A DNA stretch of 52,553 bases from an uncultured SAR86 cluster bacterium (GTDB lineage: Bacteria; Pseudomonadota; Gammaproteobacteria; Magnimaribacterales; AG-339-G14): positions 1 through 52,553 of the forward strand of contig CABXRO010000007.1 in assembly GCA_902514645.1 (NCBI GenBank). Direction: 5' to 3'. Each line of letters starts with the position of its first letter. Positions within the stretch are counted from its first letter, which is position 1. The notes beneath the pieces are model-generated. The model was not told where the DNA came from, ran no database searches, and saw nothing but the letters and a program-made list of their open reading frames with translations. Below, piece after piece: positions 22,517-33,983 of the stretch. The position numbers and the translations under genes were made by a program.

Positions 22517-24050
<1,534 letters not shown>

Positions 24051-24126
24051 ACAAATTACACGACTTTTATTGTGAGTGTCCGTTCGAATTACTTGTCTTA
24101 CTATTTTCATAGGAAAATAAGTGATG

Positions 24127-24138
24127 TGTTCTTTAAAA
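24127..24138 (+). promoter_or_regulatory. boxA antitermination element before 23S
   Basis: TGTTCTTTAAAA, same as the leader copy at 22380. Paired boxA sites in leader and spacer are usual in bacterial rrn operons. Confidence 0.65.
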
Positions 24139-24152
24139 GTATTGTAGATCCA

Positions 24153-24236
24153 GTAACTAAATTTATTTAGTTACGACACTAATAATTAATGTTATCAATT
24201 ATTAGTGCACCAAGTTTTAAGATAATTATCTTAAAA
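24153..24236 (+). repeat. Three consecutive perfect hairpins in the rRNA spacer
   Basis: Stem 1: 24153-24161 with 24166-24174 (9 bp, loop of 4). Stem 2: 24177-24187 with 24197-24207 (11 bp, loop of 9). Stem 3: 24215-24236, a perfect 22-nt palindrome. All are AT rich and occupy the place where spacer tRNAs are usually found. Confidence 0.8.
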
Positions 24237-24281
24237 TGCTAATGGCAAATTTTGGCGCTTATTATTCGAAAGACTTAACTT

Positions 24282-24299
24282 TATTAATTTAAAGTATTT

Positions 24300-24306
<7 letters not shown>
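24282..24306 (+). other. 23S precursor processing stem, 5' arm (3' arm 27197-27221)
   Basis: The 25-nt arms pair with three U-U mismatches. A second, outer helix joins 24138-24151 with 27250-27263 (14 bp, one G-U). Together they form the stalk flanking 23S that RNase III would cut. Confidence 0.7.
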
Positions 24307-27205
<2,899 letters not shown>

Positions 27206-27275
27206 ATACTTTATATTAATAGAGTTTAATAACGCTAAAATTAAACAAAGGATCTACAGTACTAAACTAGAATTT

Positions 27276-27392
27276 TGCCCGATGACATTAGCAAGTGTGT
27301 CCCACCTGATTCCATCCCGAACTCAGAAGTGAAACCACTTAGCGCCGATGGTAGTGTGGTTCGTCCATGCGAGAGTAGGACATCGTCGGGCT
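27276..27392 (+). rRNA. rrf: 5S ribosomal RNA
   Basis: About 117 nt, from TGCCCGATGAC to CATCGTCGGGCT, whose ends pair as 5S helix I. The conserved CCATCCCGAACTCAGAAGTGAAAC segment lies at 27312. A short precursor stem (27265-27272 with 27392-27399) flanks it. The right arm overlaps the stop codon of the convergent pantothenate kinase gene and no U-rich terminator follows. Confidence 0.95.
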
Positions 27393-27397
27393 TCTAG

Positions 27398-28201
27398 TTA
27401 AACTTCTAAAGTACCTATTGCTGTAGCGAATTCTCTATTTTCTGGAAAGATTACCTCTAAACCTGAAAACTCGATCCATTTTTTAAGAACTTCCTTGTAT
27501 AAAAAATAATTAGGAGTTCTTCCAATAACAACTATTTTATCCAATTTAGCTGCCAGAGCTGTAGTGGCAGCTAGCCTTGCTATATTTGTAGCAACAAGAT
27601 AAATGATAGATCTGCAAATATCTTCTTTTTCTAGTTTATCTATCATATCTAAATTTCCAAGATGAACAGCAATACTATCTTCAGGTAAATTTCCTATAGG
27701 TCCTGATATCACATCTTTTAAAGTGTAGTCTCCTATTTGACTTCCTTTTTTAGATAAATTATCTATCTCATCAGGATCATCTATTTGAGCTGCTAACTTA
27801 CATAACCCTCTAATTGTGCCACCTCCTAAACCAGTTCCCCCAAGATGAGTAGTAATTTCATTTTCGTAAGCAACACATGCGGTTCCTGATCCGCAGCTCA
27901 AGACTAAAAAATTTGAATCTAGCTGAGATATTTTCTTTGCTCCAACACCAATGCAATCTATCTCATTTTTCTTGATTATTTTTTGACCATCAAAATTATC
28001 AGGAAGGTCTAAATGTTTTCCTCCCGTTACTGAGATACTTTTGATTTTTGATTCTTTCTGGATGCTTTTAAGAATATTATTTAGAGATAAATGGATATTT
28101 TTTTCACTACTTAAAGATTTATAAGAAAAATTATTATTTGAATTGATAACAATATCAGAATTAGTTATTCCAAAATCAATTCCTATATCAACATTATCCA
28201 T
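27398..28201 (-). CDS. coaW: Type II pantothenate kinase (CoaW-like)
   Basis: First committed step of CoA synthesis, pantothenate to 4'-phosphopantothenate. At 267 residues it is the same length as Staphylococcus aureus CoaW and shows the type II (eukaryote-like, acetate-kinase-fold) pattern: IGIDFGITNSD phosphate loop, Glu80 in the position of the catalytic base, SCGSGTACV near 102, GGTGLGGGTIRGL near 121-133, a DVISG block where CoaW has VRHIY, and a C-terminal ENREFATAIGTLE. Most gammaproteobacteria use type I (CoaA) or type III (CoaX) enzymes, so this type is unusual. It lies downstream of the diiron gene across an 89-bp gap with an inverted repeat, and converges on the 5S gene with essentially no spacer. 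Confidence 0.83.
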   Translation of the reverse strand: MDNVDIGIDFGITNSDIVINSNNNFSYKSLSSEKNIHLSLNNILKSIQKESKIKSISVTGGKHLDLPDNFDGQKIIKKNEIDCIGVGAKKISQLDSNFLVLSCGSGTACVAYENEITTHLGGTGLGGGTIRGLCKLAAQIDDPDEIDNLSKKGSQIGDYTLKDVISGPIGNLPEDSIAVHLGNLDMIDKLEKEDICRSIIYLVATNIARLAATTALAAKLDKIVVIGRTPNYFLYKEVLKKWIEFSGLEVIFPENREFATAIGTLEV

Positions 28202-28290: not shown

Positions 28291-29439
28291 TTAATGATTG
28301 TGAAACATTTCCTTTATCACTTCAGCTTGTTCTTCTGCTTGAGTTTCTATCTCATCAGAAGATTCTAAAGGTTTGGAAATTTCGGCCCAATCAATTTCGA
28401 AATCACTTGGAGCAACTTCGTATTCCAATAAGCCCAATTCATCGTAAAGAGGACGGACAGACTCAGTTAAGAGACCGATTTTTTTCAAATTAGGCATTAC
28501 TCTATTAAAAAGGAGACCCCTAAAGTCATCGTTTACACCTGATTTAAGGATTGCTTCTCTAGCTTCTTTTTCAGAATAACCGAAGAACTTCTTACCTAAT
28601 TCATAGTTTTGGATTCTATCTCTCATAATTACACAAGCTTCATAAGCAAACCTTGCTCTTTCTTCAATTTCGTCCTCTGAAAGAGTTTTATTGAAATCTT
28701 CTAGATAATTAATTCCAAAAGTAACATGTCTTGCCTCATCTCTTATGATGTAATGAGTTAGATCTCTTAGAAGAGGGCAACTTGTTGTCATCTTAGTCGA
28801 TTGGAAGGCTGCAAGAGCTAAGCCTTCGATAATGATTTGCATTGCTATAAATTTAAGATCCCATCTCGGATCGGTAAGCCCTTTGTCTAAAAGTGCTTTT
28901 AAACTGGGTGAAATTGGATAGGACATTCCCATTACATTCTGAAGATACCTATTAAAAACCTCTACATGTCTAGCTTCATCAAAACATTGAGAAGCTGCGT
29001 AGAGCTTTGCTTGATAAGTTGGTGCACAAGACACAAGTTGAGAGGCAACTAGAAGAGCGCCTTGTTCTCCATGTAAGAATTGGCTTAAGCCCCATGCAGA
29101 TGCATGCCAGCTGACTTCTCTTTTTTCATCTTCCGACATGTCATTATATTCAGGATAAACATTTCCAAGGTCATCAAATTCAGGTTTTACTGGAAGGTCG
29201 CCACGTTTAATATGATTAGACCAATCTAAGTCTATTGATCCATTCCAATTAAGTTCTTTCCCAAGTTCATAGAGTCTCTTAATTCTATTATCAGCGACTG
29301 TGTAGTCCCAGTTATAAGATCCAGTTAATGGGGTATTGAAGATTTCTCTAACATCTTCAACATGCTCTGAAGTCATACGATCTTCAATATCGTCAAATTC
29401 CTGAAAACCAGGAGGTCCGTCTACATTTGTAATTTTCAT
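28291..29439 (-). CDS. Ferritin-like diiron protein, probable oxygenase or oxidase, substrate unknown
   Basis: A 382-residue protein with a complete four-helix-bundle diiron site: Glu125 (HGEQGALL), Glu155 and His158 (FDEARHVE), Glu205 (IIEGLALA), Glu235 and His238 (RDEARHVT). This E...ExxH...E...ExxH spacing is that of ribonucleotide-reductase-like and AurF-like carboxylate-bridged diiron enzymes. I cannot assign it to a named subfamily. No signal peptide is seen. The last 30 residues are acidic and Gln rich. It is the third gene of cobS-cobT-diiron, 37 bp after cobT, which suggests that the AAA+/VWA pair acts on it. Ligands are clear; the reaction is unknown. Confidence 0.82.
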   Translation of the reverse strand: MKITNVDGPPGFQEFDDIEDRMTSEHVEDVREIFNTPLTGSYNWDYTVADNRIKRLYELGKELNWNGSIDLDWSNHIKRGDLPVKPEFDDLGNVYPEYNDMSEDEKREVSWHASAWGLSQFLHGEQGALLVASQLVSCAPTYQAKLYAASQCFDEARHVEVFNRYLQNVMGMSYPISPSLKALLDKGLTDPRWDLKFIAMQIIIEGLALAAFQSTKMTTSCPLLRDLTHYIIRDEARHVTFGINYLEDFNKTLSEDEIEERARFAYEACVIMRDRIQNYELGKKFFGYSEKEAREAILKSGVNDDFRGLLFNRVMPNLKKIGLLTESVRPLYDELGLLEYEVAPSDFEIDWAEISKPLESSDEIETQAEEQAEVIKEMFHNH

Positions 29440-29476
29440 ATATAAATTATAAGCCTGTTTTTGAGAAATCCAAACC

Positions 29477-31225
29477 TTATTTTTCTTGAAAGAGTCCGGT
29501 TAATTGTTCCAACATAACATTTCCTAGCTCCTCCGCTCTGTGAATAGTTACAGCTTTTTTATAATATTTTGTAACATCATGCCCTATCCCTATCGCTATT
29601 AATTCCAGTTCTGTTCTGTTTTCAATTTCAGCAATCACCTGTTTGAGATGATTATCCAAGTAACTGGTGGAGTTGCTAGATAAAGTACTATCGTCTACTG
29701 GCGCTCCGTCAGAGATCACCATAAGTATCTTTCTTTGTTCAGGTCTTTTCATTAATCTAGAAGAAGCCCATAAAAGAGCTTCACCATCAACATTTTCTTT
29801 AAGGAGTCCTTCTCGAAGCATCAAACCTAAATTTTTTTTAGCTCTACGCCATGCTAAATCAGCAGGTTTGAAGATGATGTGTCTTAAATCATTTAGTCTC
29901 CCAGGAGAGCTTGGTTTTCCGCATTCAACCCATAGTTTTCTGCTATCTCCACCTTTCCAATGCTTTGTAGTAAAACCTAGGATTTCAGTTTTAATATTAC
30001 ATTTATCTAAAGTTGAACCAATAATGTCGGCAGATATTGCCGCGGTAGTCATTGATCTGCCTCTCATCGATCCTGAACTATCAACTAACATAGTTAAAAC
30101 AGTATCTTTAAATGATGTTTCCTTTTCTGTTTTGAAGCTCAAAGGCGTTAAAGGATCAGTGATGATTTTATGAAGTTTTGAAGAATCCAAAATACCTTCC
30201 TCTTTATCAAATTCCCACGAACGTCTTTGTTGAGCTAGAAGCAATCTTTGAAGTCTATTCGCTAATTTTGCAATTACAGATTTTGAAGGATCAATCAATT
30301 GATCCAATCTATCTCTTAACCTTTTTAGCTCTTCTGATGAGCACAAGTTATCTGCATCTACTATCTCATCAAAATCTCTGCAAAAAACCTTATATTCTTG
30401 ATTTTGATTTAAAGCAATTAACTCTTCCAGTTTAGATCTGTTTTCAACCCAATCTTCTGTATCATCAACTTCCCCTTCTTCAATTTCAAAGTCTTCAATT
30501 TCCGTTTCACTTTCATCATCTGCTTCTGATGAATCATTGTCTGGTTGATCTTCTTGTTCTTGATCTGATGAGCTGTCTTCTTCATTATCTTCATTTTCTT
30601 CTTCATTTTCAGATTTAGGCTCCTCTTGCTCAGGAGGCTCAAATTCGAAACCTAATTTTTGAAACAATGAGATTAAATGTTCATTAAATTTCTCTTTGTC
30701 ATTTAAGTATTTATCTGCAAGTTTAAAATCAGACTCTACTTCAGAAAGAGCTTTTTCCCACGGCTTTAGGAAAACTTCTTCCAACTTATTATTTTTTTGT
30801 TTTAAAAGTTTATTCTTTAAACTAATTTCTAAGGCTATTTTTAAAGCATCTTGCTTACTTTCAACTGTTTGATGGGAGAGGTTTTTTAAAAATAAATTTC
30901 TTAAGTTTTGCTTAACTCCCAAAAAATCTCTGGAGCCGAGGATCTCAGATCTTACAGCTTCAAAATCCTTAAGTAGATAATCTAATTCAGAATTTCCAGT
31001 TTTTTTAAAAGGCTTTTCTAGTAACTTGTACTTTTGTAATAATGCTTGCCTGTCTGCATCCCCTCTTGAAAGCTGAATAGACTCAATATTTTCTTTGAGA
31101 TTATGACCAGGTTCAGCAACTTGTTGGAGGTTTACTTCTATATTGAGATCTTTGTCCTTAGAGATTGCTCTACTGGAAGCATTAATTACATCTTTGACGT
31201 TTTGTTCAGTAGATTTTTGACTCAA
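29477..31225 (-). CDS. cobT: CobT-type VWA-domain protein (cobaltochelatase subunit homologue)
   Basis: A 582-residue homologue of the aerobic cobaltochelatase subunit CobT. The central region (about 198-258) is a highly acidic Glu/Asp/Ser linker. The C-terminal von Willebrand A domain has the MIDAS motif DSSGSMRGR at 382-390, followed by [57 protein letters not shown] and [15 protein letters not shown], all diagnostic for CobT. In B12 producers CobT and CobS energise the CobN chelatase. No cobN or other corrin gene is in the window. It overlaps cobS by 4 bp and precedes the diiron gene, so it may serve another metalloprotein. Confidence 0.92.
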
Positions 31226-32208
31226 GCTTGTTCAACTAAATTTAAAATAGAATCACTAGTTTCCGAATCGAAACACCTTTGAAAGTATTCTGCAATTATA
31301 GATTTTTCTGTCTCATCACATTTATTCAAGAAACTTAATTCAAATGAATTTCCAATGTCATTAAAAATAGAATAGTTTTCAGCCCAACTGATAACTGTTC
31401 GAGGAGACATTAAATTAGAAATATCTCCATTTTTAAAACCTTCTCTAGTTAAATTAGCAAGTGAGATCATTGCTTTTACTATAGATTGACCTTTTTTATT
31501 ATTTAAATCTTTAACTTTTGAAAGAATAACTTTAAGTTCCAAGTCTTCAGAGAGATAGTTGAGGGGCGAAACAATGTGCCACCTATCCATTTGACCTTGA
31601 TTAATTTGTTGGGTCCCATGATACAAACCTGTGCTATCTCCCAGACCAACAGTATTTGCCGTAGCAAAAAGTCTAAAATAAGGATGTGGCGTAAGAACTC
31701 TATTTTGATCTAGTAAAGTAAGTTTACCTTCAACTTCTAAAACTCTTTGAATTACGAACATTACATCTGGCCTACCAGCATCATATTCATCAAAGACCAA
31801 AGCAACAGGATTTTGAATAGCCCAAGGTAAAATGCCCTCTTGAAATTTTGTTATCTGTTTACTATCCTCAATAGCAATTACATCTTTACCTAATAAGTCT
31901 ATTCTGCTGATATGACTGTCTAGATTTATACGAATACATGGCCAATTTAGTCTTGCTGCTACTTGTTCAATGTGCGTTGATTTTCCTGAACCATGAAGTC
32001 CTTGAACCATGACTCTTCGATTATTTTGAAAACCTGCAAGAATAGAAAGAGTAGTAGCTTTATCAAAACAATAATCAACATCCAACTTGGGAACATATTC
32101 ATTGCTTGTTGAAAAGGAATTTACTTTTAAATCAGAATCAATTTCAAAGGTGTCGTTAACCTTTACATTTGCATCTGGTTCTTGGATTGAAAAATTATCA
32201 AATTTCAT
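31222..32208 (-). CDS. cobS: CobS-type AAA+ ATPase (cobaltochelatase subunit homologue)
   Basis: A 328-residue MoxR-like AAA+ ATPase. Walker [10 protein letters not shown] is at 70-78, Walker [10 protein letters not shown] at 137-145, with [23 protein letters not shown] between them and the sensor region [23 protein letters not shown] after, closely matching CobS. CobS forms hexamers that work with CobT to drive metal insertion. It is the first gene of cobS-cobT-diiron, divergent from cysE over 113 bp. No corrin-ring or chelatase CobN gene is nearby, so its target here need not be cobalamin. Confidence 0.92.
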
Positions 32209-32321
32209 ATTTTTAACGGCTCTAAAGGTGAGTCAACATTATCCTTTTTTAAAAAAAAACAGCAAGAAAATATATAATTTTGAGTTAACTTGCCTTAGAC
32301 TTGCGACTTAAAATTTTACTT

Positions 32322-33104
32322 ATGACTATTGTAGAAGACATTTGGGCTGAGATTCTCAAAGAAAGCAAAAATAAAATTTCCTTAGAACCAGAATCAGAGA
32401 GTCTTTTTCTAAAAAAAATATTGTCCTGCCGAAGCTTGGATAATTCTCTATCAGCAAAACTTGCAGACGACCTAGCTACAAAAGAATATTCATCTGAAAT
32501 TTTGAAAGATAAGTTTAATGAGGTTTTCTCTAATATGGATTTTTTAGAAAAGGCTGTCATCGACCTAAAAGCAGTAAAGGATAGAGATCCAGCATCTAGC
32601 GGTTTTGTATTTACATTATTATTTTCGAAAGGATTTGCTGCATTACAAGCTCACCGAATCTCAAATTATTTTATGAAAGCCAAACAAGAGGTTTTTGCAT
32701 ATTTTATCCAGAGCAGAAGTTCTGCAATATATGAGGTAGACATTCATCCCAAAGCAGAGATAGGACACGGAGTGATGTTGGATCATGCAACTGGAATCGT
32801 AATTGGAGAGACCTCGGTAATTGAAAATGATGTATCAATATTTCAGGGCGTAACTCTTGGAGGAACAGGAAAAGAAACTGGAGATAGACATCCAAAAGTT
32901 CGCGAAGGAGTCTTAATAAGTTCAGCAGCACAAATTTTAGGAAATGTAGAAATTGGAAAGGGCGCAAAAGTAGCTGCTGGGAGTGTAGTACTTTCAGATG
33001 TAGAACCAAATACAACAGTTGCCGGTGTGCCAGCAATAGTTGTCGGCAAACCTTCTTCCGAAAAACCTGCAACAGACGTTGATCACACTTTAGAAGAGAC
33101 TTAA
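32322..33104 (+). CDS. cysE: Serine O-acetyltransferase
   Basis: Acetylates serine for cysteine synthesis. The N-terminal helical domain begins MTIVEDIWAEILKES. The C-terminal left-handed beta helix shows DIHPKAEIGHGVMLDHATGIVIGE with the catalytic His, FQGVTLGGTGKETGDRHPKV and GVPAIVVGKP. It is 260 residues from the ATG at 32322. A longer frame opens with TTG at 32301 but the ATG gives the usual start. A TATAAT at 32273-32278 may be its -10. tesB follows after 3 bp. Confidence 0.94.
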   Translation: MTIVEDIWAEILKESKNKISLEPESESLFLKKILSCRSLDNSLSAKLADDLATKEYSSEILKDKFNEVFSNMDFLEKAVIDLKAVKDRDPASSGFVFTLLFSKGFAALQAHRISNYFMKAKQEVFAYFIQSRSSAIYEVDIHPKAEIGHGVMLDHATGIVIGETSVIENDVSIFQGVTLGGTGKETGDRHPKVREGVLISSAAQILGNVEIGKGAKVAAGSVVLSDVEPNTTVAGVPAIVVGKPSSEKPATDVDHTLEET

Positions 33105-33107
33105 TTC

Positions 33108-33983
33108 ATGTCAACACAAAAAAGTTTAGACGACTTGGTAGAAACCTTAAATCTTGAAAGGCTTGAGGAAAATCTATATCGAGGCGAATGCGAAAAAACT
33201 GCTTGGGGCAGAGTTTTTGGAGGACAAGTTCTTGGCCAATCTCTTAGTGCTGCCTACAACACCATAGAAGAAAAAAGATATGCTCACTCTTTTCATGCAT
33301 ACTTTTTAAGACCAGGCAGGATTGATATGCCAATAGTCTACAACGTAGTGAGAATTAGAGACGGCGGAAGTTTTACGACCAGAACTGTGGATGCAATTCA
33401 AAATGGTGAAGTTATATTTAACATGATTGTTTCTTTTCAAATTGATGAAGGAGGGTTTGAACATCAATTCGACATGCCTGATGTGCCAGGACCAAATGAT
33501 TTGCAAAGTGAAAGAGAACTTAGAGAATCGATGATCGATGAAATACCAAAAGAGTTTAGGGATGGCTTCCTTAGAGAGAAAGCCGTTGAACTTCGAACCG
33601 TGGAACAATATAGCCCTTTGAATTCAGAAAAGAAACCACCTTACAAACACACCTGGATGAAAGCCAACGGCAAGCTACCAGATGATATTTTGGTTCATCA
33701 AAATATTTTGGCTTATGCATCAGATTTTGGGCTATTAAGTACTGCTCAACTTCCTCACGGTATTAGTTGGGGTGGTATGAACAGAAGGGTTATGTCAGCA
33801 AGCATAGATCATGCAATGTGGTTTCATAGACCTTTCAGAGCAGATGAATGGCTTTTGTATGTTACAGATAGTCCTAGTGCAAGTAATGCTAAAGGCTTCA
33901 ATAGGGGTACAGTTTATACAGAAGATGGAAAACTGGTAGCCTCAGCCATTCAAGAAGGCCTCATGAGGCAAATAAAAAAATAA
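33108..33983 (+). CDS. tesB: Acyl-CoA thioesterase II
   Basis: A 291-residue double hot-dog thioesterase that hydrolyses medium- and long-chain acyl-CoA. Motifs: WGRVFGGQVLGQSLSAA near residue 29, HSFHAYFLRPGRIDMPIVY near 62, RDGGSFTTRTVDAIQNG, and in the second hot dog LSTAQLPHGISWGGM with SIDHAMWFHRPFRADEWLLY near 235. Probably cotranscribed with cysE (3-bp gap), although the pathways are unrelated. It converges on gltD with a 6-bp gap. Confidence 0.95.
   Translation: MSTQKSLDDLVETLNLERLEENLYRGECEKTAWGRVFGGQVLGQSLSAAYNTIEEKRYAHSFHAYFLRPGRIDMPIVYNVVRIRDGGSFTTRTVDAIQNGEVIFNMIVSFQIDEGGFEHQFDMPDVPGPNDLQSERELRESMIDEIPKEFRDGFLREKAVELRTVEQYSPLNSEKKPPYKHTWMKANGKLPDDILVHQNILAYASDFGLLSTAQLPHGISWGGMNRRVMSASIDHAMWFHRPFRADEWLLYVTDSPSASNAKGFNRGTVYTEDGKLVASAIQEGLMRQIKK

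Follow-up and report, generated by a model that had tools for sequence, protein, structure and literature searches.

The 52,553-nucleotide stretch analysed here (the window) is contig CABXRO010000007.1 of an uncultured SAR86 bacterium. It encodes the AAA+ ATPase CobS, its VWA partner CobT and a ferritin-like diiron protein. CobS and CobT are parts of cobaltochelatase, equivalent there to the NorQ/NorD pair treated below, and have their characterised role with CobN. Here, CobST and the diiron protein may form a partnership of another kind, a CobN-free AAA+/VWA activator encoded alongside a client that resembles diiron oxygenases. The probability of this reading is estimated at roughly 0.45. More tentative is a broader version, in which a separate CobST branch, free of CobN and B12 and present in SAR86 and in one or more further gammaproteobacteria, would insert metal into a diiron oxygenase or activate it.

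The gene coordinates (Table 1) bear out what had been noted in a sequence-only reading of this DNA. The cobS and cobT genes overlap, by 4 bp, and the open reading frame of the diiron protein follows cobT after a gap of 37 bp, so that the three genes form an operon-like row. CobS is matched by the profiles TIGR01650 (517.6 bits) and CobS_N, and CobT by CobT_C (297.5 bits), CobT and TIGR01651 (555.8 bits). Both TIGR scores are below the NCBIfam equivalog cut-offs (558.55 bits for CobS and 759.05 bits for CobT), with the respective family still being the top match. The Walker A and B motifs of CobS are present, and so are four residues, not counting the threonine, of the metal-ion-dependent adhesion site (MIDAS) of CobT. 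The checked Walker and MIDAS positions, including Tyr142 of CobS, are identical in all 15 alignment rows from loci with a linked diiron gene.

The linkage of the diiron gene to cobS was followed in a relatives set of 61 genomes, which includes the window's own. CobS is present in 49 of these, and in 45 of the 49 the diiron gene is located on the same contig, less than 4 kb from cobS. In the other four (G008, G019, G026 and G035) a contig break falls at cobS, in G026 and G035 as read from the coordinates, and these genomes are uninformative on cobS linkage. The cobT gene of G026 is found beside the diiron gene on a separate contig (L017). Gene order was read in 29 SAR86 loci, which were picked as having both genes in view (13 from the contig collection and 16 from the genome search); some of them may come from the same genome, the diiron proteins of L036 and L141 being identical. 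In all 29 the diiron gene shares the strand of cobT and begins 18–255 bp after it. A tandem second diiron gene is present in each of the seven loci of family f2 that were read. The genes for pantothenate kinase (panK) and serine acetyltransferase (cysE) and an enoyl-CoA hydratase-like gene, identified by eye, come and go around the SAR86 locus, the surroundings of which are partly reshuffled. The conserved linkage of the diiron gene with cobST, on which the sequence-only reading depended, is thus found in the CobS-bearing genomes of the SAR86 set and also in the gammaproteobacterial genome G105 described below.

Of the 80 CobS loci in the contig collection, 13 contain the diiron gene, 61 are without it despite having at least 1.3 kb beyond cobT, and six are too short. 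The 13 comprise the ten SAR86-titled records and three titled Gammaproteobacteria (L032, L036 and L040). The CobS loci nearest to that of the window are L031 and L032, with 97–98% identity. G010, G013 and G025 lack both CobS and the linked diiron copy; joint loss was considered and dropped. A match to the acyl-CoA thioesterase gene tesB, the synteny anchor, is missing there too, which makes an assembly gap likelier than co-loss. The tesB-bearing contig of G014 is 6.1 kb long and stops about 0.9 kb past the gene.

The lack of a corrin gene nearby, also noted earlier, holds for the six neighbouring proteins scanned with profiles, among which no corrin enzyme besides CobS and CobT was found. A cobN gene in a genome with a cobalamin pathway would have argued against an independent role of CobST. 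Neither CobN (CobN-Mg_chel profile) nor the corrin marker CbiC (CbiC/CobH) was matched in any of the 61 genomes, of which 29 have a completeness of 90% or more; of the corrin enzymes, the search covered these two. The window's own assembly (939 kb, 36 contigs) is likewise without a CobN match at 70% completeness. Control genomes other than Caulobacter vibrioides were positive for both profiles. C. vibrioides has a CobS match and is not among the listed CobN or CbiC matches; it is a possible laboratory model of orphan CobST.

The diiron protein matches AurF (PF11583) with 37.4 bits, above the gathering threshold of 29.6 bits. Its E...ExxH...E...ExxH site is complete, in agreement with the sequence-only reading, and each of the six ligands is identical in all 60 aligned homologue rows (59 of them different). 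Weak matches to solved chains of aldehyde-deformylating oxygenase (ADO) and R2-like ligand-binding oxidase (R2lox) were also obtained. AurF, ADO and R2lox are ferritin-like diiron oxygenases that share this site. AurF differs by an extra histidine, its seventh ligand, located four residues before the last glutamate. That position is occupied by Val or Ile in 60 of 60 rows, so that the histidine is absent from the protein in the window; overall similarity to these enzymes is low.

Evidence from beyond SAR86 comes from a sample of 274 gammaproteobacterial genomes. Seven of them have a diiron match (E up to 1e-10), including three of the SAR86 order, and 14 have CobS (E up to 1e-60), including two of that order. 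G105 is the sole genome of this sample outside SAR86 with both. Its diiron gene and cobS-cobT are divergent and about 530 bp apart. Genes resembling rplM and rpsI (by eye) are found about 7 kb away, and the surroundings are unlike those in SAR86. CobN was not matched in G105, which carries two further diiron copies on other contigs. A search of its order for more linked cases gave G105 alone.

In a tree of the CobT VWA domain, G105 and SAR86 are grouped with support of 100/96 (100/98 without the four longest rows). A tree of CobS and CobT combined recovers a G105-SAR86 clade at 100/99, with the bootstrap not settled, and places G105 inside SAR86 at 83/73. The remaining 24 rows of that tree, from loci of 9–15 kb, include no diiron match. 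In these trees diiron linkage tracks one CobST clade. Six loci (L226, L227, L228, L231, L232 and L233), assigned to the same phylum and to no particular class, are not among the rows of the CobT trees. A screen of every alignment column of CobT identified position 391, which is Ser in 15 of 15 linked rows and Pro in 26 of the 29 others; G105 has 4 of the 7 positions found in this way. Position 391 lies five residues after the MIDAS serine S386, and the change would fit an altered target surface. In the tree of CobS, the SAR86 sequences join those of SAR11 and two from alphaproteobacteria with support of 98/93. This grouping suggests lateral transfer between ocean lineages, and the CobS/CobT pair of SAR86 is probably of alphaproteobacterial descent.

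CobN was not found, and the row includes a metalloprotein. On the simplest reading, CobT would bring this diiron protein to CobS for insertion of metal or resetting of the site. A CobS hexamer would hold the VWA domain of CobT. Through its MIDAS metal, CobT would bind the diiron protein, in the apo or inactive state, at an acidic patch. An ATP-driven twist would then open the diiron protein, so that iron (or another metal) could enter or the site could be reset. We infer the contact, the metal loading, which metal is loaded and what the diiron protein catalyses. The model for the CobST step is the action proposed for NorQ/NorD at the Fe_B site of nitric oxide (NO) reductase. According to two sources (PMC13036017, PMC9976466), NorQ and NorD are required for insertion of this non-haem iron, a finger of the NorD VWA domain is located in the NorQ pore, the proposed partner of the MIDAS is an acidic patch on the target protein, and an ATP-driven rotation stretches a linker.

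NorQ/NorD, a MoxR-type pair, resembles CobST in combining an AAA+ ATPase with a MIDAS-bearing VWA protein, in its iron-enzyme client, a candidate one for CobST, and in its proposed action. It differs in that the client is a membrane haem enzyme, whereas CobS/CobT families and a diiron protein are found here. The other close system is the aerobic cobaltochelatase CobNST. Its solved chains (9ujv and others for CobS, 9uka and others for CobT) match the window proteins at E about 1e-142 and are homologous over most of the length. It differs in that the relatives set is without a CobN or CbiC match and in that the scores are below the equivalog cut-offs. As in other AAA+/VWA activators, the pair is encoded beside its candidate client, in the 45 of 49 genomes and in G105; family f4 is without CobS. 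No report of a CobST-diiron link was found in the literature, as judged on titles and abstract openings. To our knowledge, this would be the first AAA+/VWA pair of the kind to be linked with a diiron carboxylate enzyme.

Several observations weigh against this partnership. One is family f4, in which CobS is found in none of eight genomes and one diiron gene is kept in all eight. The f4 diiron protein is placed inside the linked clade in two trees (97/90 and 95/90), retains all six ligands and is encoded beside tesB in 5 of 8 genomes. G073, which is 100% complete, also has diiron genes and no CobS, and an unlinked diiron paralogue with the same ligands is present elsewhere in SAR86 genomes. Over the stretch of alignment examined, linked and unlinked diiron copies could not be told apart by a C-terminal tail or any other feature; the tails vary within both groups. 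Furthermore, tesB is located on the opposite side of cobS in all 16 loci of families f1–f3 that were read. This neighbour is conserved too, and part of the conservation of diiron gene and CobST may therefore be plain synteny. In G105 an open reading frame of 142 codons separates the diiron gene from cobS. G105 is a single genome on a long branch, the linked clade comprises 14 rows of which 13 are SAR86, and the tree of CobS alone places G105 elsewhere (89/80), not with SAR86. Outside the class, five genomes of a phylum-wide sample have homologues with 54–57% identity and CobS at distant places; they are half of the 10 genomes among 398 that match the diiron protein at E up to 1e-20. Finally, orphan CobST is widespread without a diiron gene nearby.

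Two of these points need qualification. That the linkage arose independently in G105 and in SAR86, as the CobS tree would have it, was considered and dropped, because a joint CobS clade is not rejected (p-AU 0.105) and the CobT and combined trees unite the two. For f4, the median identity of the diiron protein to that of the window is 55.8%, compared to 63.9% for f3; tesB shows no such drop in identity (45.2% in 5 of 8 f4 loci, 46.6% in f3). The f4 diiron protein may have diverged because its constraints changed once CobST was lost, or because its origin is deeper. The pairing of CobST with the diiron protein is plausible for SAR86 and G105 and is not strict, since f4 and G073 keep the diiron protein without CobS.

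The alternative to be taken most seriously, even if we find it doubtful, is that CobST serves a general client in organisms with orphan CobST at large, SAR86 and SAR11 among them, and that the co-transcription with the diiron gene is regulatory or historical. CobN is present in 3 of the 12 non-SAR86 gammaproteobacteria with CobS and unmatched in nine, G105 included, and by the listed matches C. vibrioides is orphan as well. Eight SAR11-type loci were read, in which bolA- and dnaJ-like genes (by eye) precede cobS and no diiron gene is present; SAR86 CobST is near SAR11 CobST in the trees. The conserved neighbour tesB would also agree with a shared history of the region. Speaking against a general client are a linkage that follows one CobST clade and includes G105 with its different surroundings, and the second diiron copy of f2, which also sits in the cobST row. 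The sequence-only reading had further suggested that a diiron partner could explain orphan CobST in general. This does not hold: orphan CobST is common without a diiron gene, and the diiron protein is not the general reason for it. Overall, the earlier interpretation is partly supported. In five non-SAR86 gammaproteobacterial loci (L186, L188, L196, L187 and L193), CobST is located near xsc- and/or pta-like genes or genes resembling a (tri)methylamine methyltransferase or FAD oxidoreductase, all named by eye.

It is improbable that CobST works with a diverged cobalt or magnesium chelatase subunit beyond the reach of the CobN model, or in corrinoid salvage. The known role with CobN and the close match to the solved chains would agree with such a function; the negative CobN-Mg_chel and CbiC searches, with the other controls positive, do not. 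Reactivation or assembly of the diiron enzyme without metal loading, comparable to CbbQ/CbbO acting on RuBisCO, is similarly improbable. CbbQ/CbbO function in RuBisCO activation and RavA/ViaA interact with fumarate reductase (PMC9976466). On the other side, NorQD acts in metal insertion. CobNST has the same role, and CobST here has a metalloprotein beside it; the sequence by itself does not discriminate between the two actions. That CobST is a mere relic of a lost B12 pathway, as the missing CobN and CbiC might imply, is hardly credible, since the checked Walker and MIDAS residues are intact, CobS is kept in most of these small genomes, and its grouping with SAR11 and alphaproteobacterial sequences suggests acquisition rather than a remnant.

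Apart from the partnership proposed for CobST and the diiron protein, the window and its relatives provide the following context. Within the window's genus panK adjoins the diiron gene or lies close to it; in other SAR86 its place shifts, and it is probably outside the system. ARAGORN found no tRNA in the window and hence none in the spacer of the rRNA operon. Promoter and terminator scans were no better than the shuffled level and were not used as evidence. The unlinked diiron paralogue of SAR86 precedes a pyrG-like gene in five loci read and follows an alr-like gene in four (by eye). The row in these loci (L119, L124, L125, L126 and L130) resembles rpsF-rpsR-rplI-dnaB-alr-diiron-pyrG-kdsA(-eno), with names by eye and L125 without an adjoining alr-like open reading frame. 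In a plasmid collection, tblastn with the diiron protein gave six records, of which four were inspected. The diiron genes on Rhodococcus and Streptomyces plasmids have other neighbours, with no CobS or CobT listed there, and the Burkholderia cenocepacia and Nonomuraea records have no annotation around the match.

Table 1. Features of the cobST-diiron locus and its flanks (window positions).
Feature	Position	Strand	Remarks
cobS, AAA+ ATPase	31222..32208	-	328 aa; Walker A residues 70-78, Walker B 138-141
cobT, VWA partner of cobS	29477..31225	-	582 aa; TTG start; MIDAS D382, S384, S386, D506
Ferritin-like diiron protein	28291..29439	-	382 aa; AurF-family match; ligands E125, E155, H158, E205, E235, H238
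panK, type II pantothenate kinase-like gene (Fumble)	27398..28201	-	downstream of diiron gene
cysE, serine acetyltransferase	32301..33104	+	divergent flank, outside the system
tesB, acyl-CoA thioesterase	33108..33983	+	flank, served as synteny anchor
16S-23S-5S rRNA operon, complete	22517-27391	+	

The cobS and cobT genes are in use as markers of B12 synthesis. Their presence in genomes in which CobN and CbiC were not found means that marker surveys may miscount marine B12 producers. Should CobST serve clients besides CobN, its orphan forms in SAR86 and Caulobacter would become a tractable question of how metal sites are loaded or reset. For this question SAR86 offers a named candidate client, the diiron protein. 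If true, the partnership would represent a CobN-free use of the motor subunits of cobaltochelatase.

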